DNA of 36,885 bases from Thermoplasmata archaeon. Its GTDB lineage: Archaea > Thermoplasmatota > Thermoplasmata > Thermoplasmatales > Thermoplasmataceae. Numbering within the stretch: the stretch's first letter is position 1; the number at the start of each line of letters is the position of its first letter. Below the pieces are notes generated by a model. That model saw nothing but the letters and a program-made list of their open reading frames with translations. It was not told where the DNA came from and ran no database searches. A program made the position numbers and the translations under genes. The stretch covers positions 1 through 36,885 of the forward strand of contig JAKAWU010000006.1 in NCBI GenBank assembly GCA_021816965.1, in the 5' to 3' direction. Below are positions 42 through 26,424 of the stretch, piece by piece.

Positions 42-126
42 GCGGAGGTTGCCGAGTCAGGTCAAAGGCGGCAGACTCAAGATCTGCCTCTGTAGGGATT
101 CGCCGGTTCGAATCCGGCCCTCCGCA
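42..126 (+). tRNA. tRNA-Leu (anticodon CAA)
   Basis: The acceptor arms GCGGAGG (42-48) and CCTCCGC (119-125) pair perfectly, followed by discriminator A126. The anticodon stem GCAGA/TCTGC encloses the loop CTCAAGA, giving anticodon CAA at 78-80. The T arm is GCCGG-TTCGAAT-CCGGC. A long variable arm is present, as expected of a type II leucine tRNA. The 3' CCA is not encoded and no intron is visible. It reads UUG codons. Confidence 0.96.
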
Positions 127-408
127 TATCCCTTTTTGGTTAAATGCGTATTATAATCTTAAAGCCGGTTCTGTCAGTTCTATGAAGTCTGGGCATGGTT
201 GTCAAGAGTCGGATGACTCGTAAATTATTAACAAATTAGTATAAATAATTTCCTATTTTGAAAAGTGTGTCCAGAAAATTTTTTTAATGACGTCTAACAC
301 ACTTATGAGAATTTCTAATAACCGGGTTATTTTACCAGATTTAGTAAGAATAACCTTTATTCATGGGTTGCCCATAATACAGCATGGAAAACCTTCTCGA
401 TGAAGCAC

Positions 409-693
409 TCAAGGAAATATATAAGGAAACGATGGGTCGTGATTCCCTTGCATTATTGTGCCTTCAACAACCTTCTCCTCGCCCCTGTTTGCGTCCCTGA
501 TCTCGGACCAGTTATCCGGGTCCAGCGGGCCGTAATAGTAGTATACCCTGGCAGCATCCCTCTCATTCTCATAATAGGCAGGCTTCGCTATCGCCTTATC
601 GGTAGCGTCCCTGCCTCCTATCTTTACCTTCACCAACGTGGTTGGTGAATCATTTATCTTATCAACCAATTCTTTTATGTTCACTGGTATCAC
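409..693 (-). CDS. Hypothetical protein, probably 3'-truncated
   Basis: This 94-residue minus-strand ORF begins with GTG (GTG-ATA-CCA-GTG). It reads convincingly up to about residue 80: KELVDKINDSPTTLVKVKIG, then a tyrosine-rich stretch ARVYYYYGPLDPDNWSEI. The tail after VVEGTIMQ overlaps the antiparallel transposase remnant and looks like read-through past a recombination junction near 455-465. I do not recognise the family. No signal peptide or membrane segment is seen. It sits inside the IS5-like remnant and may be passenger DNA brought in by rearrangement. Confidence 0.4.
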   Translation of the reverse strand: MIPVNIKELVDKINDSPTTLVKVKIGGRDATDKAIAKPAYYENERDAARVYYYYGPLDPDNWSEIRDANRGEEKVVEGTIMQGNHDPSFPYIFP

Positions 694-720
694 TTCCAGT
701 TACAGCACTTCTTGGCTGCC

Positions 721-795
721 CTCACCCCTCCCCAAAAATCGCCTTTTACCGGCAGTGCCGGTCCACACGGGTGAGAATGTGACCGTCACACTCAC
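721..795 (-). other. Structured region with mutually exclusive stems, upstream of the 409-693 ORF
   Basis: CTCACCC (721-727) pairs perfectly with GGGTGAG (769-775), enclosing a hairpin ACCGGC-AGT-GCCGGT (748-762). The GTGAG at 771-775 can instead pair with CTCAC at 791-795, enclosing GTGA/TCAC (779-782/786-789). The two folds compete for the same bases. It lies 28-100 nt upstream of the GTG start of the minus-strand ORF, so it could be a structured leader, or a relic of an insertion element. Function is unknown. Confidence 0.35.
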
Positions 796-1022
796 GCTTG
801 ATCAAACTTCTTCTGAACCTTCAATACTACTACCTACAGGTCAAATATAATACTTTCCATGGTTTCAGATTCGGGACGATAAGGAGGGCAATGAATGAGG
901 GGTATCTTCTATTGAAAGGACTGAGAAAGGTGACAGGGGAGTTTGGTTTCAGCGTAACAGCATACAACATGAAGAGGGCAATAAGCATCTATGGTAACAG
1001 ATCAGTAATTCAGAGCCTATGA

Positions 1023-1246
1023 AATAGAGAAAAACGACCCTTATCTAAATCCCTGTCTAAATTCAAGTGTAGCTATACCCAGAATCCCGCATGTTCAAAA
1101 ATAATTTTCACACGACCTCCTTCGAGCATACGTTGGACGATCGCCTCCTAACGGTCATCCCACAATCTAGATGACTATAATGTTTCCTGTAGGAGGAGAG
1201 TCACTCCCCATCTTAACATACCATCACATAGTTTACGACGCTTTGT
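1023..1246. other. Gene-free gap
   Basis: No convincing ORF, tRNA or repeat is seen here. It is probably the degraded 3' flank of the IS5-like remnant plus the 3' flank of the kinase-HD gene. No right-end copy of the TTTTCCTATAAACCTCC terminus was found. Confidence 0.4.
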
Positions 1247-4159
1247 TTAATTTTTGACTCTGTGTTCATCAAGATCATAGTTCATTACATCTTTACCTGA
1301 TATAGCCGCAAAAATTAATTCCATTGCCCATTTGTCTATTTCGCTAACAATTTCCTTTGTTGAGAATAGAGTACGAAAAGCATCTGGATGGACTAATATT
1401 GAAATCTTCCATATTGACTCATACAGTACCTTAGCAATTTCGGAAATTTCCTTTGCCTCAATAATCCTCGCACCTACTATTCCGCCTGACTGAAAATACC
1501 TCTTCCTAGTTTCATTCGGAACATATGACAAATTTCGCTTAAATCCTCTCTTAGATGCTGGATCTGGTGGGATGTCAATCAATAAAATAAACTTATTTTG
1601 GAGCTTTTTGTCAAATTCCTCCTTAGTCTTTATTCCCGTTTCCGGGTTATACATGTCTTTGTAGAGTATGTCTTTTACCTTTTCATTTAACTTAATTGAA
1701 ATTTCAGCTTTCTTATCCCACTTCAAGTTATATATGAGGTCCATCAAAGCGTCTGAAGGCTTTGAGACCAATATAGGAAAGTAATTATTTGCACCATCGA
1801 GTAGCCTAGAGACAGAATCAAATCCGACCGTTACTAGTTCCTTATAAAGCACCCTTCTGATCAGATCCTCAGCGAGCCCGGTTGAAGCATTACTATGACC
1901 TATGAATTTTTCATTTATTATTCTCATGTTTTCGAAATGTTTAATCATTAACTCATCATAGGAGTTGACATTGTAACCTTCCTGGCTTATCGGGTTTAGG
2001 TCTGTTCCTAATGTTTTGATATATTCACCAAAATTGTTTTTGAACTCTTTTGAGCTTTTATCCTCAGAGGCGGAACTTGAAAATGCCCCTTCCGGCAATT
2101 TCAACGCAACTAAATGTTGAATCATAGTTTTGATTATTCTGACAACATGATGCCAGTAGACGGATTCGAACATTTCGTATCGTGCGAATGTTACGGCCTC
2201 AGCAGAAATTTTTCCTCTTTCATAAACGCCTAAATTTGATTTAAAATTCCCATACTCGTCATGGTCTATTGCATATGTTAGGTCATTTATCAATTTTTCG
2301 TGGTCAATCTGACCTCCATAAGTTAGCCCGCATGCTTTACTGTCTCTTTGAATATAATCAATCTTGTCACAATCAATGGGTCCGTCTATCACAGCAGACA
2401 AGAGATTGGATTTAATGCTCTCTTTATATATCTCTAGATTGATATTTACATGGGATGATACCGAATAATGGGAGCCTTTATTTATTATATCGGCAATGAC
2501 ACCTAATATAGCATTCTTTTCATCATCATTTTTAGCATCAGGGAACCATTTCATTATAATGTCTTTTATCGTGTGTCCTTCTTTATCTTTGATGTCAGAG
2601 CTCAAAAAATTAATACTAAATATCGAATGAAGCAATAACTCTGGTGCTACCTCTTCGATATCATGCGCTAACGGAAATTGCCCTAGATCGTGAAGAATTG
2701 CAGCCAACATTAGTTCGGTCGCATCATCTCTAGTCACCAAGCCTCTGAAAACGGGGTACCACGGGTCATTGAATAGAGCTCTAATATATTTAAGTGAGTA
2801 AGTATATACCCCTATTGAGTGTTCATACCTCGTGTCTGTGGCCGTGGGATATACAAAAGAAACAAACCCTAATTGGGAAAAGTATTTAAGCCTCGAAAAT
2901 AACGGATGCTCAATCAAAGACTTAAGATTGTCTGTCATCGTTGTCATAATTAGGGGAATTATCCGCAGTAATTTTACTGGAGATAATGACATTTCGGGAA
3001 TTTCACTTTCCAGCGTCCAGGCTCCCTCTTCTTTCCTTACATCAATAATAAACTGTACAAGACTTTCGTACCTAATTTCAACATCATAGTCATTGCTAGT
3101 CAATCCTGGGAATACTTCCCCAATTGTGTAAGGCGGGTTTTCATACGGAACATTTCTGGCTCTTATTTGTATTAAAGAACTTCCATTTTTATTGTTTTCA
3201 CCGTCTAATAGCCTTGTTGCTAAGAAGTGCAATGCCCTGAATCTAGGAGACAAAGTGATTTTTTCCCCTAATTTAGCTTCTATGTCTTGTAAAAGTTCAA
3301 GTATGGTAATTCCAAGTGAGTAGTAGTCAAACCCCCTCTTTAATTTACTTCGCTTCATTCTTATGGATAGGTGATCGCCCCTTGTTCCATCACCTGTTTT
3401 CCACTGCAAAATAAAAGGATGTGAGTAAGGTTCTGAGACTGCCAAAGAGACGTCATCATCATTAATAACATTATCTCTTGGATTCAACAGTTTTTCAATA
3501 CTCCCCATATCCACCAGAACTACTCTCTTGTCCTTGTCTATCATACAGTTTTTAGGTTTGAAATCTAAGTAGACATAACCCTGCTTATTAATATAATCTA
3601 GGACTTCAGCGGATTCTCGTACAAAACTCAAAAACTCGTTGATCAGTTCATGCAAAGGTCCGGAATCAAAGTTCATACTGTTAGTAAGAATTTTTTCACA
3701 CTTCTCCTTGAAATAATTTCCTGATTCTTTTCCATCGATCCATTCTTCTATGATAAACGGGATACTCCGTCCTTCGAGACTGATCTCTCTCGAATCGAAA
3801 AATCTGACAATTCCTTTATGATTTAGCTTCTTTAGGAGATTTATTTCTTTGTTTATTCCATTGCTGTCGTCTAATCTGTCTGGCCTAGGAAACTTAAGCG
3901 CATAAACCATACCCGTTCTAATATGTTGAATGTTGAATACATAACTAGTTCCGCCCCTGAACTTGAATGTAATCAGTCCTCCAATGCTCCCCTCATTTGT
4001 CTTCCCACAATAAAAATCGTTTTTCAAGACTTCGCATATTTCATCTAGAATAGTTAGAACCTTGTCTATCTCTTCATCTGCTTGCTTTTCCGAAAAATTC
4101 TTATCTTCTGTTAGGTATTTTTTTATATGCTTCCTTAATTGGTCAAAGACAGAGTCCAT
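1247..4159 (-). CDS. Fused Ser/Thr protein kinase and SAMHD1-type HD phosphohydrolase
   Basis: The protein has about 970 residues from the start chosen here; residue numbers below use the longer 1022-residue frame beginning at 4315. A short helical N-terminus is followed by a eukaryotic-type kinase domain (about 115-345). It has FKFRGGTSYVF (Gly loop), YALKF with K141, E157 (helix C), YVYLDFKPKN with D251 and N256, VDMGS in place of DFG (D269) and FDYYSLGITILEL. A linker leads to an HD domain (about 455-700): TRYEHSIGV (H499), LHDLGQFPLAH (H542, D543) and DGPIDCDKIDYIQRDS, the H..HD..D layout of SAMHD1/dGTPase-type triphosphohydrolases. The last 300 residues are family-unknown. Start: ATG 4157-4159 has a TATA-like box 29 nt upstream and looks leaderless. 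The longer frame to 4315 reads into the right end of the adjacent IS110 element. Both catalytic sets look intact. It could be a stress or antiviral nucleotide-depleting enzyme; that role is inferred. Confidence 0.85.
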   Translation of the reverse strand: MDSVFDQLRKHIKKYLTEDKNFSEKQADEEIDKVLTILDEICEVLKNDFYCGKTNEGSIGGLITFKFRGGTSYVFNIQHIRTGMVYALKFPRPDRLDDSNGINKEINLLKKLNHKGIVRFFDSREISLEGRSIPFIIEEWIDGKESGNYFKEKCEKILTNSMNFDSGPLHELINEFLSFVRESAEVLDYINKQGYVYLDFKPKNCMIDKDKRVVLVDMGSIEKLLNPRDNVINDDDVSLAVSEPYSHPFILQWKTGDGTRGDHLSIRMKRSKLKRGFDYYSLGITILELLQDIEAKLGEKITLSPRFRALHFLATRLLDGENNKNGSSLIQIRARNVPYENPPYTIGEVFPGLTSNDYDVEIRYESLVQFIIDVRKEEGAWTLESEIPEMSLSPVKLLRIIPLIMTTMTDNLKSLIEHPLFSRLKYFSQLGFVSFVYPTATDTRYEHSIGVYTYSLKYIRALFNDPWYPVFRGLVTRDDATELMLAAILHDLGQFPLAHDIEEVAPELLLHSIFSINFLSSDIKDKEGHTIKDIIMKWFPDAKNDDEKNAILGVIADIINKGSHYSVSSHVNINLEIYKESIKSNLLSAVIDGPIDCDKIDYIQRDSKACGLTYGGQIDHEKLINDLTYAIDHDEYGNFKSNLGVYERGKISAEAVTFARYEMFESVYWHHVVRIIKTMIQHLVALKLPEGAFSSSASEDKSSKEFKNNFGEYIKTLGTDLNPISQEGYNVNSYDELMIKHFENMRIINEKFIGHSNASTGLAEDLIRRVLYKELVTVGFDSVSRLLDGANNYFPILVSKPSDALMDLIYNLKWDKKAEISIKLNEKVKDILYKDMYNPETGIKTKEEFDKKLQNKFILLIDIPPDPASKRGFKRNLSYVPNETRKRYFQSGGIVGARIIEAKEISEIAKVLYESIWKISILVHPDAFRTLFSTKEIVSEIDKWAMELIFAAISGKDVMNYDLDEHRVKN

Positions 4160-4183
4160 GCTAAAAGATAGTTGGATCCCAGT

Positions 4184-4192
4184 ATTTATAAT
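4184..4192 (-). promoter_or_regulatory. TATA box of the kinase-HD gene
   Basis: The minus strand reads TTATAAATA, centred about 29 nt upstream of ATG 4159. This is the spacing of an archaeal leaderless promoter. The box lies outside the IS110 element, so the native promoter appears intact. Confidence 0.6.
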
Positions 4193-4256
4193 TTGTGAGT
4201 TATCGTGCTCTGTTGAATGAAGAAGAGTAGACACAATCTCTTCATTAAACAGGTAT

Positions 4257-4279
4257 GTAAATATCCAGCCTGCTTTTCC
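4257..4279 (-). repeat. Right-end inverted repeat of the IS110-family element
   Basis: The minus strand reads GGAAAAGCAGGC, then four bases, then TATTTAC. It is an exact match in both blocks to the other end of the element at 5631-5656. This sequence also encodes the apparent N-terminus of the over-long 1022-residue reading frame, which argues against that start. Confidence 0.7.
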
Positions 4280-4324
4280 CCTCACATTGTCATACCCTCC
4301 AGATATTTGAAACATCCTGTGGAC

Positions 4325-4478
4325 CTGGATAGCTGTCTGCCCGATCCCCCCTTTCCCCCGAACAGGTATGAGCGTTCTGGACGCAAATTGACCATATAGG
4401 GGAGGGGAATCACTGCACTCAGAGCAAAGACGAGGATGCCAGTTGAATGAAAGCAGTGGAGCAGACAGCCACGTCCAG
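4325..4478 (-). ncRNA. Candidate bridge RNA / seekRNA of the IS110-family element
   Basis: This 154-nt stretch directly 3' of the transposase gene folds into a closed structure. The outer stem is CTGGA/TCCAG (4325-4329 with 4474-4478). After small internal loops comes GCTGTCTGC/GCAGACAGC (4332-4340 with 4461-4469). Inside are two further hairpins. One is CACTGC/GCAGTG (4411-4416 with 4453-4458) with a 36-nt interior. The other pairs the G-tracts at 4399-4407 with the C-tracts at 4346-4359 and is capped by GCGT/ACGC (4372-4375 with 4381-4384) above a large asymmetric internal loop. Two stem-loops with big internal loops match the architecture described for IS110 guide RNAs, and IS1111-group elements encode theirs downstream of the transposase. 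Which loop would bind target or donor was not resolved. Confidence 0.62.
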
Positions 4479-4492
4479 TGTATCCGGGCGTT

Positions 4493-5581
4493 TCAATCAT
4501 CTTCCAGGTCTGACACCTTTCTCTCTGTGAGCATTACGTTTTCGTATTTCCATGGCTTCCTGTTGCTGAGCATGAAGTAAATCATCCTGAGCAGCTTCCT
4601 CATTGTTAGTACGTGGGCGAGTTTACCTGAACCCGTTCTCTCTTTCTGATGGTTGTAGTATTCCATTATGGGTTTGTTTCTAATCTTAACGGTATCCACA
4701 GCCATGGAGAGAGCCCATCTTCCAGTTGATGCCCCCTCCTTGGACATGTGACCTCTCCTTGTTATTGAGGAGGAATCCCTGTTGCTTGGAACTATGCTGA
4801 AGAACGAGGCTAGCTTACTCTCATTTGGAAATCTCTTGATATCACCTATGTATAATGGTAACAGGAAAGCGAGATAATAATCTATTCCAGGAATAGACAT
4901 AAGGAGCTTGACGTCCTCTGATTCCCTTGCCCTTATCCTTTCTTCCAGAGGAGGGATCTGATCCTCAAGGAATTTCAGCCTTCTGAGCATTGTTTTAAGA
5001 ACTATATCCTTGTCACTGTTGAATTTGATGCTCTCCATTGCCTCCCTTCTCTTCCCAGAGAAGTTCTCACTGCTCTCTGGGATTGTATCGTATAATCCCT
5101 CTCTTTTGAGGTAGCTGATTATGGATGTTTTCATCCTAGAGACTTCCTGCCCAAACTTTGCCCTCTGGATAAGGAGGTCACGGAATATTCTGTCTTCTTC
5201 TGACAGCAGGTGGGATTCCGGAATCATGTTCACCAGGTGAAGCTTTGCCAGCTTCACTGAGTCAACATGATCGTTCTCTCTCTTAGACTTCACTATCCAT
5301 GAAAGCACCTTGGGGTGAGCAACAGTGATACTGTCATATCCAAGTGACTTCAGCTTGTTGAACACTACATAAGCCATTCCGGATGCTTCAAACGCTATCC
5401 TTGTTTCAGAAGGTATCTTCTCCCTGAACTCCCTGTATCCATCTGAGTTCATTGAAAATGTGAACTCTTCAATGATGTCTCCGGAAGGAGACATGTATGT
5501 TGCAACGCTTTCCTTTTCCCCAATGTCTATCCCTACTGCATAGTCGTTCATGTTTTCCATATTCACTTTCTTTCTCTTCAT
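4493..5581 (-). CDS. IS110-family DEDD recombinase (transposase)
   Basis: The protein has 362 residues, normal for the family. The N-terminal RuvC-like domain carries AVGIDIGEKES (D19), RIAFEASG (E65) and ENDHVDSVKLAKL (D104, D107), the DEDD set. A coiled-coil-like middle (about 140-230) follows. The C-terminal transposase_20 domain has LMSIPGIDYYLAFLLPLYIG and then SSSITRRGHMSKEGASTGRW, which includes the candidate nucleophilic serine. The start is supported by a Shine-Dalgarno GAGGTGG 9 nt upstream (minus strand, 5590-5596). No frameshift is seen, so the enzyme should be active. With the RNA downstream it would catalyse RNA-guided insertion of the element. Confidence 0.93.
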   Translation of the reverse strand: MKRKKVNMENMNDYAVGIDIGEKESVATYMSPSGDIIEEFTFSMNSDGYREFREKIPSETRIAFEASGMAYVVFNKLKSLGYDSITVAHPKVLSWIVKSKRENDHVDSVKLAKLHLVNMIPESHLLSEEDRIFRDLLIQRAKFGQEVSRMKTSIISYLKREGLYDTIPESSENFSGKRREAMESIKFNSDKDIVLKTMLRRLKFLEDQIPPLEERIRARESEDVKLLMSIPGIDYYLAFLLPLYIGDIKRFPNESKLASFFSIVPSNRDSSSITRRGHMSKEGASTGRWALSMAVDTVKIRNKPIMEYYNHQKERTGSGKLAHVLTMRKLLRMIYFMLSNRKPWKYENVMLTERKVSDLEDD

Positions 5582-5596
5582 TCTTTTCCACCTCTA

Positions 5597-5627
5597 AAGC
5601 GACACCAAGCACTGGCTAGTGTCGCTT
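5597..5627 (-). other. Hairpin in the left end of the IS110-family element
   Basis: AAGCGACAC (5597-5605) and GTGTCGCTT (5619-5627) form a 9-bp perfect stem with a 13-nt loop, immediately upstream of the transposase Shine-Dalgarno. It may limit translation or be an end-recognition structure. IS110-group elements encode their guide RNA on this side, but the region here (about 75 nt) is short for that. Confidence 0.5.
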
Positions 5628-5630
5628 GAA

Positions 5631-5656
5631 GGAAAAGCAGGCGGCAGGGTATTTAC
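5631..5656 (+). repeat. Left-end inverted repeat of the IS110-family element
   Basis: The plus strand reads GGAAAAGCAGGC (5631-5642), seven bases, then TATTTAC (5650-5656), matching the other end in inverted orientation. Confidence 0.7.
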
Positions 5657-5684
5657 TACTCAATCAGAGCAGATCGTTCAAAAG

Positions 5685-5692
5685 ATTATAAA
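5685..5692 (+). promoter_or_regulatory. TATA box of the small ORF at 5717
   Basis: ATTATAAA is centred about 27-28 nt upstream of ATG 5717, consistent with a leaderless transcript starting at that codon rather than at ATG 5708. Confidence 0.5.
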
Positions 5693-5716
5693 TCCATTTA
5701 TGTATTAATGGACAGC

Positions 5717-5887
5717 ATGGTCAAACTCCAAATAGATTTGGAAAGAAGGGCGCTCGGTTCTGTAATTGGAATAGTAGCTTACGATGAGATCACAAACAAG
5801 AAAAAGAAGATAGGTCTTTTAATTCCAAAAGATCGTATTGGACTTGACGAATTGCCTCAAAAAATAAGTGTGATTATTGATTATTAA
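5717..5887 (+). CDS. Small hypothetical protein (56 aa)
   Basis: The ORF starts MVKLQIDLERRALGSVIG and ends PQKISVIIDY, with a charged centre TNKKKKIGLLIPKDRIG. The residue pattern (alternating hydrophobic strands, KK-rich turn) looks like a folded small beta-rich protein. I do not recognise the family. An in-frame ATG at 5708 would add three residues, but the TATA spacing favours 5717. It stands alone between the IS110 element and an IS630 fragment, so it may be a remnant or a small regulator. Real gene status is moderate. Confidence 0.5.
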   Translation: MVKLQIDLERRALGSVIGIVAYDEITNKKKKIGLLIPKDRIGLDELPQKISVIIDY

Positions 5888-5960
5888 TTAAGAGAGTGGG
5901 GTGTCTCACATATTGTGAAATCTCCGATGGATGTCGAACATTATTAACATATTCCATTAT

Positions 5961-6173
5961 TTATTGCCTCTTGGGCTGATCCTGGAGGCATCCTCTCGTT
6001 TTTATGAAGGTTCTCCCCTTATCGTACAGCGCTGAGAATCCAGTTTCGTTGAAATCGTTAACCCAGCCCTCTACTGTTCTTGGGGAACGGCCAGGCATCC
6101 CTGCCACCTCGTAGCAGCTCATGCCTTCTGCTACCATCAACACCACCAAGCACGGAGACCTGTTGTGTTTTCA
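5961..6173 (-). pseudogene. IS630-family transposase, N-terminal helix-turn-helix fragment
   Basis: The reading VVLMVAEGMSCYEVAGMPG then RSPRTVEGWVNDFNETGFSA and LYDKGR is the N-terminal winged-helix region of IS630/ISNCY-like transposases (family pattern: vaEG.S..EIA...G.s..TV..W...f...G...L.D). The frame is cut by a stop just upstream and loses similarity after DKGR. The DDE catalytic domain is missing. It is a relic about 200 bp long. Confidence 0.7.
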
Positions 6174-6268
6174 GGAACTCTCGCAATTTAAAATTAATCT
6201 CGCATGGAAATACTTAATCGCACCCAAAGATGCTTAGAATGCAGTTATTATCACTTTTTTCAGTGTCT

Positions 6269-7071
6269 CTATCTGAGCTGTCTTGCATTATATACTATTA
6301 TGGACAACATTGTGGTAATAGCGAAGTACGAAAGCATTATTATGACCGACTCTCCCACCGTCGGGAAATAAGATGTTACTTGAACTCCGTTGATAACATA
6401 TGTTGAAATGTGGGGTGGATAGGTGGGAAGGGGACCGCCTCGATTGCATCGCCACCATAGATAAGAATGTACCACGGTTCCCTATCAAACTGAAGTACTA
6501 CCTGTTCTATCGCCAGAAAACCTACGAAGAGTAGCATAAATGATGATATGATAGAAACAGAAATGCTTCTGAACAAGGTACTGAAAAAGAAAGCTAAAGA
6601 CAGACTGGCCAGGAGGAAAAGGATTGCGAGTCCGTAGGAACTTAACATTCCTGTTGGGATTGAGGAGTAGTGATATAAGCTTGCTGCGGCATCTATCGCA
6701 TAATAAACACCAATCACCAAAGCTCCAGATGTGAGAGCGCCGAAGAGCCTTCCTATGTAAACTGATATCCTTGAGATAGGTTGGGTCAGAATCATGAGCC
6801 CCGTTCCGGAATAGAAATCTTGGGCAAACGCATCCCCCCCAAAAAATACGGCAACTACCACTATAACCAGAACTATGTTCCCAAGAACGTCACTTATGAA
6901 TGAGGCTGCCAAGTGTGGAAATTTTATGGCACCAGAGAAGTAGACCGCAGCCATCATAACGGAAAGCAACGCTGATACTATGAGCATTCCATAGAACCTC
7001 CAGCTCCGGGCGTAGTAACGAAGAAAAGTTAGGTAGAATGCGTTAGTCACTTTCATGAAACTTGGTTTCAT
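6269..7071 (-). pseudogene. ABC-2 type exporter permease, frameshifted
   Basis: From ATG 7071 a multi-spanning protein reads through five hydrophobic segments (MLIVSALLSVMMAAVYF, VLGNIVLVIVVVAVFF, LVIGVYYAIDAAASL, GLAILFLLASLSLAFFF, VSIISSFMLLFVGFLAI). It then ends early at 6376. The missing C-terminus, including the last membrane helix (ESVIIMLSYFAITTMLSIIV) and a basic tail, is in another frame down to 6269. The switch lies near 6400-6450 in a G-rich stretch. The start overlaps the stop of the ATPase remnant by ATGA. It is related to the intact permease at 17330. A sequencing error is possible, but the partner ATPase is also destroyed, so decay is more likely. Confidence 0.75.
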
Positions 7072-7244
7072 ACATCTCCACCTATCATCTTAATGTACGC
7101 CTCCTCCATTCCGATGGCTCCTTTGCCTTCGAATCTTTTATTGACTTCAGCAACAGACATCCTCGATATTATCTTTCCCTTGTTTATGAAGATGACTTCA
7201 TCACACAAGTCAGAAACTTCAAACATGAGGTGCGAACTTATGAC
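7068..7244 (-). pseudogene. ABC transporter ATP-binding protein, C-terminal remnant
   Basis: The minus strand encodes KVISSHLMFEVSDLCDEVIF, INKGKIISRMSVAEVNKRF and YIKMIGGDV, then a stop that overlaps the permease ATG by four bases. SSHLMFEV contains the H-loop histidine of ABC ATPases. Walker A, signature and Walker B lie upstream of the junction and are gone. The IS5-like left end begins exactly where the similarity stops (7245). Confidence 0.8.
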
Positions 7245-7704
7245 TTTTCCTATAAACCTCCCATGAAAATCTCAATGCCCATTGATCTCTCTTCTTTTCA
7301 TGTTTCCAACTGAATGTAATGCGGAATTAGCATTTCAGCAATGATTCAGTCACTTTGCATATGGAAAGCTTTATTCATGGGATCAGCATGTTCAATCAAT
7401 GAGTAACATTGTAGATTACGGTCTCCGTGAAGCATATAATTCCATGAAATCCATGGACAAACTTGCGGAAATCGATCCCATGATAAATTGGGAATTATTG
7501 AGGCCCATAGTGAGAGAACTTTACAGGAATGATACAGAGAAAGGCGGAAGGCCCAATATTGATGAGATTGTCATGATAAAGACACTTTTCCTGCAGAGCA
7601 TGTACAACTATTCCGATGAATCCATAGAGAGAGAACTGTACAACCGTATTGACTTCCGGAACTTCCTCCACTATCCGGAAATAATACCTGATTCAAGGTC
7701 AATC
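7245..7704 (+). mobile_element. IS5-like element, 5' portion only
   Basis: The left end TTTTCCTATAAACCTCCCAT begins at 7245. The same terminus recurs at 35031 and, diverged, on the minus strand ending at 23293. A leader of about 150 bp precedes the transposase start at 7399. The element is lost after about 7704; no right end was found. It truncates the ABC ATPase remnant. Confidence 0.7.
7399..7704 (+). pseudogene. IS5-like transposase, N-terminal DUF772 fragment
   Basis: The frame starts MSNIVDYGLREAYNSMKSMD and contains RPNIDEIVMIKTLFLQSMYN, YSDESIERELYNRIDFRNFL and PDSRSI. This is the DUF772 (InsH N-terminal) domain that precedes the DDE catalytic domain. In relatives PDSR(S/T)I leads on to W.FRERL; here that is replaced after residue 102 by unrelated sequence running to a stop at 7815. 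No catalytic residues remain, so it is not functional. Confidence 0.85.
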
Positions 7705-7762
7705 TGTGTATATTATGATCTAAATCACCAGAATTTTTTTACTCTTTTCCCTGAATTATTGT

Positions 7763-8275
7763 TTAGAGGAGAATATACATGTACAATTCATCAAAATACC
7801 TGTTTCCACGCTTGATCGATTTTGGCCGCATACCGTAGTCTATAAAACCGAGATTCCTGTATAGAGAATTGGCTCTCTTATTTGTGGTGAAAACACTCAG
7901 TGTCACGATTTCAAGTTTTCCTCTTGCAGCGTCCAGTGCACCTAAGATAAGTGCTTTTCCTATACCTCTGTCTCTGTATCCCTCCCTGATCGCAATTCCG
8001 AGAACTCCATTGTGTGAGACTTCAGAACCAGGTCTAATTCGGTGAATATCGCATATCCCAACAACTTTTCCATCTTCCACAGCAACCCTCACGAATGCAT
8101 CTCCTTTCATAGTGTTTCTGTAAAGATTTGAAAACCACTCAACTTCACTCTCAAAAGAAGGTTTGTCATGGAAGAATATGATGCCAAATTCTTGGTCTCT
8201 CTTAACTTCTTCATAGTACGAATAATAATTTTCTATAAGATCATTCATATCATTCCATTGAAGTTCTCTTATCAT
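7763..8275 (-). CDS. GNAT-family N-acetyltransferase
   Basis: The protein has 170 residues, typical for a single-domain GNAT. Motif A is visible as VLGIAIREGYRDRGIGKALI (R/Q-x-x-G-x-G/A: RDRGIGKA), which binds the acetyl-CoA pyrophosphate. The C-terminal motif B reads NKRANSLYRNLGF, the usual N..a..lY.k.GF. The substrate cannot be told (protein N-terminus, amino acid or small amine). Start ATG 8275 follows an A/T-rich TATA-like stretch by about 28 nt. It stands alone next to IS debris. Confidence 0.88.
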   Translation of the reverse strand: MIRELQWNDMNDLIENYYSYYEEVKRDQEFGIIFFHDKPSFESEVEWFSNLYRNTMKGDAFVRVAVEDGKVVGICDIHRIRPGSEVSHNGVLGIAIREGYRDRGIGKALILGALDAARGKLEIVTLSVFTTNKRANSLYRNLGFIDYGMRPKSIKRGNRYFDELYMYILL

Positions 8276-14238: not shown

Positions 14239-15510
14239 ATGATAATCAAAGAAGTTGGAATTGAAAATTTCAAAGGGATCGATTCATTAAAATTCAAACC
14301 AAAACTTCTGAATGTAATTGTAGGTAGAAACAATACTGGAAAAACTTCAATTATAGAGGCCATTGCTATGGCTCTTGACGGAACATTTCTTGATGAGAAT
14401 TATTCGGAATCTCCGACCTCAATAATTAACTACCTGGCGAATTCAGGAGAAATTTCTCTTGCCCTATCTGAAAATCGAAATACCAAACTTGTTTTGAAAT
14501 TCAAGAGAATAGATGAGCATGATCTGTATAAAAATATAGTCAGTAAGACATTGAATGACATTAAAAAAATTCAAGCTGGATCTGAAAAAAAAACAACTTC
14601 AGGAACGATTGATTCTAAAAAGATTAAAAAAGCTATAGATTCAAACGATATTTCTATATTTCAAGATGCAATCGAAGTAATTCTCAAGAATAGGTTTACA
14701 ACAGATATTATTAAAAAATTATTACAAGACTGTGTCTTAGTCAATAATGGAAATGAAGAGTATCTACTATTTGGGAATGATTTCAGATCTTTTGTAAATC
14801 AAATCACTGAAGCAGTTATTGAAAAAATTTATGATAAAAGTGTTGTTAAACAATTAGTATGGTCAACTAATTTTTCCTTGATACACTATTCTACATATTC
14901 ACCAATTTTTCCAAGTCAAAGAAAGAAAAGTATCTATGATTCTACGAAAATGATCTTTGTTAAAAATCCATTGCAAACTTTACAAACTCTATTAATCACG
15001 AAGGAGGGGCATCAGGAATTATCCTTAGAGATAGAAGATATACTCAAAAAAGATGATGTTCTTCCAAACTTAATTAGATTCGATTTTACTGAGTTAGTAT
15101 TTGATACGCCAGAAAGTAGAAAATCTGTCAAATTTAATAGGATGGGGGAAGGCTTCCAAACTCTGGTAGCCATTTTAGCAATTCTAAAATCCAACGGAAA
15201 TGTAAATTCTATTTTTCTGATGGAAGAACCGGAAGTACATATGCACCCCGGATATGTTGGTGAACTAGTAAAGTATTTAGCACAAATATCAAGTTCTCTG
15301 AAGATCCAGTTCTTCATAACAACCCATAGTTATGACTTGATTCAGTCACTCCTTGAAGAGGAAAATCCTGATCTCAAAGAATTTTTGGAAAAAAATCTAT
15401 TATTACTCAGACTAAACAAAGTTAATGACACTATAATAGGAGAAAACATAACATATAAGGATGCAAAGAAGGATAGTTCCGTTCTTCTTCTTGATTTGAG
15501 AGGAATTTGA
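14239..15510 (+). CDS. OLD/AAA15-type ATPase (AriA-like) of a two-gene module
   Basis: The protein has 423 residues. It begins with the RecF/SMC-like strand IIKEVGIENFKGIDSLKF and Walker A VGRNNTGKTSIIEAIAMAL (G29-T36). A charged, lysine-rich coil region (about 90-160) is inserted. The C-terminal lobe carries MGEGFQTLVAILAIL (signature-like; 302-316), Walker B IFLMEEPEVHMHPG (325-338, E329/E330) and FFITTHSYDLI (H363). This is the ATPase half of OLD-family nucleases, but no TOPRIM domain follows within the protein. That domain is in the next gene. Separate ATPase and TOPRIM genes are the layout of PARIS (AriA-AriB). The codon use is visibly more A/T-rich than neighbouring genes, suggesting transfer. 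Confidence 0.85.
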   Translation: MIIKEVGIENFKGIDSLKFKPKLLNVIVGRNNTGKTSIIEAIAMALDGTFLDENYSESPTSIINYLANSGEISLALSENRNTKLVLKFKRIDEHDLYKNIVSKTLNDIKKIQAGSEKKTTSGTIDSKKIKKAIDSNDISIFQDAIEVILKNRFTTDIIKKLLQDCVLVNNGNEEYLLFGNDFRSFVNQITEAVIEKIYDKSVVKQLVWSTNFSLIHYSTYSPIFPSQRKKSIYDSTKMIFVKNPLQTLQTLLITKEGHQELSLEIEDILKKDDVLPNLIRFDFTELVFDTPESRKSVKFNRMGEGFQTLVAILAILKSNGNVNSIFLMEEPEVHMHPGYVGELVKYLAQISSSLKIQFFITTHSYDLIQSLLEEENPDLKEFLEKNLLLLRLNKVNDTIIGENITYKDAKKDSSVLLLDLRGI

Positions 15511-16128
15511 TTGAAGGCGCTCATACTGTTAGAAGGAAATAATGATGGAATATTCCTTAAGGAAATAATACAAAATACCGCTTTTCCTAACATCAGACCA
15601 AATTATTATAAAAATCAGGGAACAAAACCTCAAAAAAAAGTTGAAGAAACTAAACTCCTAAGGAGCTTTTGTAGAAAAGATTGTGAGCATAATTTGCTAA
15701 TAGAAGAAGAGGGAGGAAAAGGCTTTGTCCTGAGTCTTTTTCATAATGTAATTGTTAATTTCTTGATAACCAACAAAAATATTCATTTAACAGTGATATT
15801 TGATCACGATGGAAATGATCCAACGAAGGAAATTGAAAAAATTAACAAAAATCTCCAAGACAAAACTTTTGGAAGAATTGAATTGAAACCAGCTGTTCCA
15901 AAAAAACAAATTATTCCTGGATTATATTCAAGAGAATTTTTTCTAACCATTAACCAAGGAAAATATAATAGAAACTTGACAAGTTTTTCCTTTATCAGTT
16001 TTGATAAATCTTTAGAATGTGAAGTGGCTAAACTCTGCCATAAATCTGAGAGTGAAATAGATGAAAATGACATAAAATTTTTTGCGTCTAAAATAAAATT
16101 CAATGACTTAATTCCCAATTCACCTTAG
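15511..16128 (+). CDS. TOPRIM-domain protein (AriB/DUF4435- or DUF3226-like nuclease candidate)
   Basis: The protein has 205 residues and starts with TTG immediately after the TGA of the ATPase gene (TGATTG), so translation is coupled. The TOPRIM pattern is visible: ALILLEGNNDGIFLKEII supplies E8 on the first strand, and TVIFDHDGNDPTKEIEK supplies D98 and D100 (DxD) after the expected spacing. The C-terminal part (about 120-205) has KKQIIPGLYS and DENDIKFFASKIKF but no further domain I recognise. Such proteins cleave nucleic acid (OLD, or AriB cutting tRNA). The activity here is inferred only. It ends 84 bp before tRNA-Arg. Confidence 0.78.
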   Translation: MKALILLEGNNDGIFLKEIIQNTAFPNIRPNYYKNQGTKPQKKVEETKLLRSFCRKDCEHNLLIEEEGGKGFVLSLFHNVIVNFLITNKNIHLTVIFDHDGNDPTKEIEKINKNLQDKTFGRIELKPAVPKKQIIPGLYSREFFLTINQGKYNRNLTSFSFISFDKSLECEVAKLCHKSESEIDENDIKFFASKIKFNDLIPNSP

Positions 16129-25254: not shown

Positions 25255-26424
25255 ATGATTAAAAACCTCAAAATGCAGTTATACCAAAATGAAGAACAGA
25301 AGTTTCTTCTTGAGAAGCATTTTGGGTCATGCAGGTTCGTATGGAACCACTTTCCTGAGGTCAGAAATAAGTATTATGCTGAACACAAGAACGACAAGAA
25401 AAATGGATTGACCGGATTTGATACCATGAAGATGCTAACGGTACTGAAAAAAGAAATCACATGGCTGAATGAGATCAACTCACAGAGCCTTCAGCATTCC
25501 CTTGTGAAACTGGATATGGGATACAAATCATTCTTCAAGAACAATACAGATTATCCAACATTCAGATCAAAGAAGGATAACCAGTACTTCATCATACGGT
25601 CAGGTTTCAAAACTGATGAAAATAAATTGATCATTCCAAAATTCATGGAAGGAATAGAATATCATGACAAAACAGGAATTCCAGAGAAAATAAAACAGAT
25701 CGTGATAACAGGAGATGTCGGGAGATACTATGTATCTATACAATATGAAACAGAAGAAGGGCCACCTAAAGGGATCGGTGTTATGGGTATTGACATGGGC
25801 CTCATGGCATTCCTCACCACATCAGATGGATTGCAGGTTGAACCCCTGAATGCACTTAGGAAAGTAGAAAAGAAATTGAAGAGAGAACAGAGGAAGCTGT
25901 CAGGAAAAAGAAAAGGATCAGAAAACAGGAAGAAGCAGATAATTAAAGAAAAGAAAATATATCAGAAGATGAGGGATACAAGAACAGACTTCAACCACAA
26001 AGTATCAACAGCCATAGCCATGCATTATGGTACTGTGGTTGTGGAAGATTTGAACATGCAGGGCATGCAGCAAAACCACAATCTTGAAAAGAGCATAACA
26101 GATCAGGGATGGTATCAGTTCAAAACCATGCTGCAATATAAACTCAATTTGAGAAAGGCAGATCTAAAAGAAACAGGAAGGTTTGATCCATCCTCAAAAA
26201 CATGCTCGAAATGCGGAAACATAAAACATGATCTGAAACTTTCGTATCGCACATATTACTGCAATAAATGTGGACTGATCATAAATCGTGATCTGAACGC
26301 AGCAATAAACATACGCAATATTGGTATGATAAAAGTAGGGAAGGGCATTCCCGAATTAACGCCTGAGGAAAGTGCTACGGCGGCGGAACTCTCAATAGGA
26401 GGTCTACCAGTTGTCACTCTATGA
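25255..26424 (+). CDS. tnpB: TnpB, RNA-guided nuclease of IS200/IS605 type
   Basis: The protein has 389 residues, full length. The N-terminal helix-turn-helix region reads LYQNEEQKFLLEKHFGSCRF. The RuvC motifs are all present: D in MGIDMGLMAFLTTSDG, E in VVVEDLNMQGM and D in INRDLNAAINI. The zinc knuckle is TCSKCGNIKHDLKLSYRTYY then CNKCG. It therefore looks catalytically intact. TnpB cuts DNA guided by an RNA from the element's right end and favours element persistence. Without TnpA it would need transposase from elsewhere. Confidence 0.96.
   Translation: MIKNLKMQLYQNEEQKFLLEKHFGSCRFVWNHFPEVRNKYYAEHKNDKKNGLTGFDTMKMLTVLKKEITWLNEINSQSLQHSLVKLDMGYKSFFKNNTDYPTFRSKKDNQYFIIRSGFKTDENKLIIPKFMEGIEYHDKTGIPEKIKQIVITGDVGRYYVSIQYETEEGPPKGIGVMGIDMGLMAFLTTSDGLQVEPLNALRKVEKKLKREQRKLSGKRKGSENRKKQIIKEKKIYQKMRDTRTDFNHKVSTAIAMHYGTVVVEDLNMQGMQQNHNLEKSITDQGWYQFKTMLQYKLNLRKADLKETGRFDPSSKTCSKCGNIKHDLKLSYRTYYCNKCGLIINRDLNAAINIRNIGMIKVGKGIPELTPEESATAAELSIGGLPVVTL

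Follow-up and report, generated by a model that had tools for sequence, protein, structure and literature searches.

The window, the whole 36,885-nt stretch of DNA that was analyzed and one entire contig of a Thermoplasmata archaeon, encodes a 970-residue protein in which a Ser/Thr kinase is joined to a SAMHD1-type HD enzyme. This kinase–HD fusion is real and is an accessory gene, and at least ten further kinase–HD proteins were found: four in the archaeal family of the window, at least five in bacteria, and one on a contig of a viral collection. HD dNTPases are known restriction factors against phages and retroviruses, and the activity of human SAMHD1 is tuned by phosphorylation. We tentatively propose, with slightly less than even confidence, that the fusion is an immune enzyme encoded by a single, horizontally mobile gene, in which the kinase would gate a dNTPase and dNTPs would fall on infection; the substrate, the trigger, the direction of control, and the abortive outcome are the parts of this proposal that we infer.

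Identification of the fusion gene

The longest open frame around the gene (1247..4315, minus strand) encoded 1022 aa, and an ATG at 4159 inside this frame gives the 970-aa protein. Because a TATA-like element lies ~27 nt upstream of this ATG, as in leaderless archaeal mRNAs, and homologues start near the same position in the alignment, 4159 was the better start, and translation likely begins there (Table 1). The residue numbers of the sequence-only reading of this DNA referred to the 1022-aa frame; subtracting 52 gives the numbering used here.

Pfam analysis of the 970-aa protein detected Pkinase (residues 68–291; 6.8e-17), HD (444–526; 3.4e-6), and HD_assoc_2 (618–687; 2.3e-9), all exceeding the curated cut-offs, so that the kinase and the SAMHD1-type HD enzyme that the earlier reading had placed in one polypeptide are indeed encoded by one genuine ORF. 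A sequence search of the PDB with the fusion returned GCN2- and PknB-like kinases together with SAMHD1-type HD enzymes, and no model in PADLOC, NCBIfam, or Pfam described the whole protein. Chance juxtaposition of the two domains was ruled out by the same domain order in at least ten other proteins, and an assembly artifact by the origin of these proteins in other assemblies.

Table 1. Features of the fusion gene and its locus in the window
Feature	Position	Strand	Evidence
tRNA-Leu (CAA), left border of variable block	42..126	+	ARAGORN
Variable block, 7.57 kb; 1138 bp instead in sister genome G008	128..7701	.	blastn of window and C46 against G008
94-aa ORF downstream of fusion	409..693	-	No significant Pfam or PADLOC match
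Kinase–HD fusion CDS, 970 aa	1247..4159	-	ORF, Pfam, AF2 model; start from TATA-like element and homologues
C-terminal lobe, aa 706–970	1250..2044	-	AF2 and Foldseek; tail motifs
SAMHD1-type HD catalytic region, aa 396–705	2045..2974	-	Pfam HD, HD_assoc_2; SAMHD1/EF1143 profile alignment
Ser/Thr kinase domain, aa 68–291	3287..3958	-	Pfam PF00069 6.8e-17; conserved residues
TATA-like element TATAAATA	4183..4190	-	Sequence; ~27 nt upstream of ATG 4159; inferred promoter
IS110-family transposase, directly upstream of fusion	4493..5581	-	Pfam PF02371, PF01548
Short transposase-like remnant, IS630-type helix-turn-helix	5961..6149	-	By eye; resembles ORFs beside G024 and G442 copies
ABC-2 type permease in block	6376..7071	-	Pfam PF12679
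DUF772 transposase fragment across right border of block	7399..7815	+	Pfam PF05598 5.3e-13

Conserved residues of the two enzymes

The window protein contained the signature of eukaryotic-like Ser/Thr kinases, namely the Lys–Glu pair, the catalytic Asp/Asn, and DxG. The residues read earlier as K141, E157, D251/N256, and D269 were recovered in the alignment as K89, E105, D199/N204, and D217, accompanied by K201 and G219. D199, K201, N204, D217, and G219 were invariant in 10 of 10 aligned fusions; K89 and E105 were also conserved, except that K89 deviated in one (L007), where the alignment was ambiguous, and that the kinase Lys and Glu of another (L053) are missing from the alignment owing to a contig end that removes its N-terminus. 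In the window copy, the His of the HRD motif was replaced by Tyr197, and the Gly-rich loop was degenerate.

The HD part matched SAMHD1 with a profile E value of 3.9e-31. Its metal site consisted of H447, H490–D491, and D598, which bears out the full H..HD..D set claimed earlier (H499 and H542–D543 in the numbering of the longer frame). These four residues and H499, D596, K599, Y602, D606, R660, and Y668 were invariant in all ten aligned fusions, and H511 deviated in L007, again in an ambiguously aligned region. In the active site of SAMHD1, R164, H215, H233, K312, Y315, and R366 contact the phosphates and Y374 stacks on the base (PMC11074143). Profile alignment placed R444, H499, H511, K599, Y602, and R660 of the fusion at these phosphate-contacting positions and Y668 at that of Y374. 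Both enzymes are very likely catalytically competent.

Dissimilarities from SAMHD1 were found at two sites. The position of Q375, which contacts the base in SAMHD1, was occupied by Trp669, an invariant Trp in all fusions, and the base preference, or even the substrate, of the HD part may therefore differ from that of SAMHD1. Together with the chemical breadth of the HD superfamily, this replacement would accommodate a non-dNTP substrate, such as another nucleotide, an alarmone, or a signaling nucleotide, cleaved under control of the kinase; we consider this improbable, since the equivalents of R164, K312, Y315, R366, and Y374, which hold the triphosphate and the deoxynucleotide, were invariant. 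Homology supports dNTPase chemistry well, and we regard dNTPs as the likely substrate. At the second site, the residues Q142 and R145 of the guanine allosteric site of SAMHD1 were replaced by S422 and K425 in the window protein, and among the sequences compared both were retained only in one fusion (L054) and two HD-only proteins (L061 and L064). Loss of the guanine site was rejected as a hallmark of the fusions because the nearest stand-alone HD proteins also lacked it; for the same reason, the kinase is not demonstrably its replacement.

Predicted structure

We predicted the structure of the 970-residue protein with AlphaFold2 from an alignment of twenty sequences. The model had a mean pLDDT of 81.6 and a pTM of 0.85, which are good values for a two-enzyme protein. 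A Foldseek search against the PDB superposed the HD part and the tail on dGTP-bound Enterococcus faecalis EF1143 and on SAMHD1 over 570–610 alignment columns, with E values from 6.7e-14 (3irh; TM-score by target 0.65) to about 1e-11; this structural match and the profile score above agree on the proposed relationship with SAMHD1. None of the 50 best Foldseek matches was a PDB entry spanning both a kinase and an HD enzyme. The 300-residue tail had been described as being of unknown fold; in the model it instead extended the HD-associated region and formed a C-terminal lobe like that of SAMHD1/EF1143, and its motifs were also present in stand-alone HD relatives. As judged from the model, the Foldseek matches, and the conserved residues, neither the kinase lobe nor the HD metal site was missing.

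Distribution and phylogeny of kinase–HD proteins

The search of 60 relatives yielded three further fusions, and a census of the family added a fifth archaeal fusion, so that 5 of 77 family genomes carry a kinase–HD gene. A sample of 390 genomes across the phylum gave no additional match covering both domains; an 891-aa open frame surrounded an HD match in one genome of this sample (G159). A first scan of a genome-contig collection with the single window protein as query returned no match. The bacterial fusions from the genome-collection scan came from Armatimonadetes, Actinomycetota, Acidobacteriota (Solibacter), and two more bacteria, representing at least three phyla, and an IMG/VR search provided one more (L130). 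Matches in plasmid and phage collections were HD-only or kinase-only, and nothing relevant was seen in the two neighborhoods inspected there.

Architectural variation was also observed. The G442 fusion (L177, 7214–10639, plus strand; 1141 aa) carries an additional Cys-rich N-terminal region of ~280 residues before the kinase, possibly a zinc-binding sensor. An alphaproteobacterial contig encodes another kind of HD fusion (L065, 5818–8670, plus strand), in which a SAMHD1-like HD domain is combined with a PRTase-CE domain.

Stand-alone HD relatives were widespread in the phylum, as would suit a housekeeping enzyme of dNTP homeostasis with a regulatory kinase. We consider such a role very unlikely, as the window genome possesses separate stand-alone HD genes (G000:C16 and C29), the fusion is present in 5 of the 77 family genomes, and two copies from the same genus shared only ~24% identity. 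On the first two of these grounds, the fusion was ruled out as a housekeeping homologue, and the homologues were not restricted to core housekeeping loci.

In the tree of HD domains, which had long branches, the fusions clustered far beyond chance (3 changes versus about 9; 0 of 500 shuffles), and this cluster mixed archaea with bacteria. A strict single-clade origin of the fusions was rejected (AU test, p 0.010), in part at least owing to a kinase-less HD protein (L063) that sits among them, and the archaeal fusions as one clade were weakly rejected (p-AU 0.034). The clustering and the mixing of archaea with bacteria support, without proving, repeated transfer of the fusion gene. Among the matches listed, the nearest HD-only group comprised the stand-alone planctomycete proteins L055–L060, which lay near the fusions in the trees and shared with them a YWHH motif and the tail motifs, whereas they were ~440–510 aa long and had no kinase.

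Genomic contexts of the fusion genes

Window bases 1–127, including the tRNA-Leu gene, are an exact overlap with G000:C46:1-127, of the kind left by assemblers where the assembly graph branches. Sister genome G008 contained one continuous stretch made up of the C46 sequence (90% over 6 kb), the tRNA-Leu gene, and, 1138 bp later, the match to window position 7702 onward (83–95%), which defined window positions 128–7701 as a variable block adjoining a tRNA gene; the sample may contain both strains that carry the block and strains that lack it. The variability of this block and the presence of the fusion in 5 of 77 family genomes are in keeping with the accessory role suggested by the sequence-only reading.

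Elsewhere on the contig, an OLD-like AAA_15 ATPase (14239–16128, plus strand), whose best PADLOC matches were AriA and PDC-M38A, is directly followed by a 205-aa ORF matching PDC-M38B (8e-5) and DUF3226. These two genes are likely a PARIS-like pair and would constitute a second defense candidate on the contig. A TnpB-like protein with OrfB_IS605 and a Cas12f1-like TNB domain is encoded at 25255–26424 (plus strand).

The clearest association with a defense system was found on an Armatimonadetes contig (L051, 1–11927). Its BREX-like operon consisted of genes for PglZ, the kinase–HD protein, the PglXI methyltransferase, AbiEi, AbiEii, and BrxL, all on one strand with short gaps. Among the matches listed, L051 alone was embedded in BREX, and the window and the other copies were without BREX genes. 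Other neighbors included an nSTAND3 ATPase 0.6 kb upstream of the G003 copy, with a transposase and tRNA-Ser nearby; an OLD-like AAA_15 ATPase 1.4 kb downstream of the L050 copy; HipA 2.4 kb downstream of the L053 copy; and Prok-E2 and ThiF genes 6.6 kb from the G027 copy. The G024 and G442 copies adjoined transposase ORFs, the L052 copy lay near a phage integrase, and the L130 copy was beside a serine recombinase. The embedding of one copy in BREX and the proximity of others to conflict genes suggest that the fusion gene probably has a defense role.

Alternatively, the fusion might be a gene of a mobile element or island that serves the element through nucleotide-pool control or a stress response and has no antiviral role. 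The window block itself, which contained IS remnants, the permease, and small ORFs and no recognized defense gene other than the fusion, would suit this explanation, as would the serine recombinase and the phage integrase. The BREX-embedded copy and those near nSTAND3, OLD-like, and HipA genes argue against it, and we judge it unlikely.

All-against-all blastp of the neighbors revealed no conserved partner gene; the neighbors shared only transposases, an archaeal regulator-like family, and core genes. The lack of a partner common to these loci suggests that the kinase–HD protein probably works alone. Individual copies had further neighbors. A 330-aa ORF (L016, 11511–12503, minus strand) without Pfam or PADLOC match shares 8 nt with the beginning of the G027 fusion gene and is a possible operon partner of that copy, and a 263-aa ORF on the other side of the fusion showed weak likeness to HSDR_N. 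Beside the G024 fusion (L018, 5243–11840) were genes for a 275-aa membrane protein and a nucleoside hydrolase and, on the opposite strand, a second HD protein, a ParA-like ATPase (PADLOC PDC-M28B), a 484-aa unknown protein, and a methyltransferase.

Comparison with known systems

The fusion shares with SAMHD1/EF1143 (PDB 3irh and 4lrl) the fold of the HD part and tail, the metal site, and the triphosphate-binding residues, but adds the N-terminal kinase and differs at the Q375 and Q142/R145 positions. Its kinase is of the Hanks type, as are those of PD-T4-6, MAD6, and PglW. PD-T4-6 and MAD6 were its best PADLOC matches, but the matches to models of these kinase systems covered the kinase region only (NCBIfam MAD6 scored 36 bits, far below its cut-off of 460), and none of the models includes an HD dNTPase. 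With BREX systems containing PglZ, PglXI, and BrxL, the relationship was the same-strand insertion between PglZ and PglXI in L051. The tests run place the fusion outside PD-T4-6, MADS, and BREX. Clover, composed of the dNTPase CloA and the nucleotidyltransferase CloB (PMC12265719), likewise pairs a dNTPase effector, which is predicted in the fusion, with a dedicated regulator; in the fusion, however, the regulator would be a kinase within the same chain, and no nucleotidyltransferase adjoined the fusion among the scanned neighbors, AbiEii being two genes away in L051; downstream of the window fusion, the scan extended over the 1.2 kb up to the contig end, beyond which the sequence continues in contig C46.

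We found no description of a fusion of a kinase with an HD, SAMHD1-like, or dNTPase domain in the open-access literature, including that on BREX. The main text of a recent BREX survey (PMC12839542, 2026) contains no mention of SAMHD1, of an HD domain, or of a phosphohydrolase or dNTPase, and nucleases are named in the part devoted to auxiliary effectors.

Functional prediction

In the proposed mechanism, the C-terminal two thirds of the protein would act as a SAMHD1/EF1143-type triphosphohydrolase that releases triphosphate and nucleoside from all or some dNTPs, and the N-terminal Ser/Thr kinase would regulate it from within the same chain. The kinase would be switched by infection or by a molecule that arises in its course; autophosphorylation or a kinase-driven rearrangement would then turn the HD enzyme on, and the resulting fall in dNTPs would stop viral DNA synthesis and host growth as well. 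A kinase that gates the HD enzyme is the simplest way to interpret a fusion that is fixed, and it is on this ground that we adopt this view, at even confidence.

The main rival reverses the two roles: the HD part would monitor nucleotides and detect, for instance, a virus-induced dNTP imbalance; the kinase, thereby released, would be the effector and would block growth by phosphorylating proteins of the host or the virus. Kinases are known as stand-alone or system effectors and sensors, and the PD-T4-6 and MAD6 models matched the kinase region. The S/T/Y-kinases of PglW have been proposed as possible suicidal effectors in the BREX survey (PMC12839542), and the HD dNTPase of Clover reads nucleotide levels (PMC12265719). 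Nevertheless, the whole HD catalytic set, including H499 and H511, was kept in nearly every fusion, which counts against pure sensing, as sensing needs no such set, and we regard this reversed arrangement as rather unlikely.

Depletion of dNTPs is an effector strategy common to animal immunity, through SAMHD1, and bacterial immunity, and how such effectors are kept off before infection is a live question; bacterial defense dNTPases act through unknown mechanisms of regulation (PMC12265719). The kinase–HD protein offers a candidate switch and its effector in one chain, so that regulation could be addressed with two point mutants. More speculatively, and with distinctly lower confidence than in gating itself, the fusions may represent a new cross-domain family of single-gene immune enzymes in which a SAMHD1-like dNTPase, serving as a BREX effector in at least one lineage, is switched through phosphorylation by its own kinase domain rather than by nucleotide allostery alone. 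If true, this would parallel the phosphorylation control of human SAMHD1, and BREX would gain a nucleotide-depleting effector beyond the nucleases named in the auxiliary effectors section of that survey (PMC12839542).
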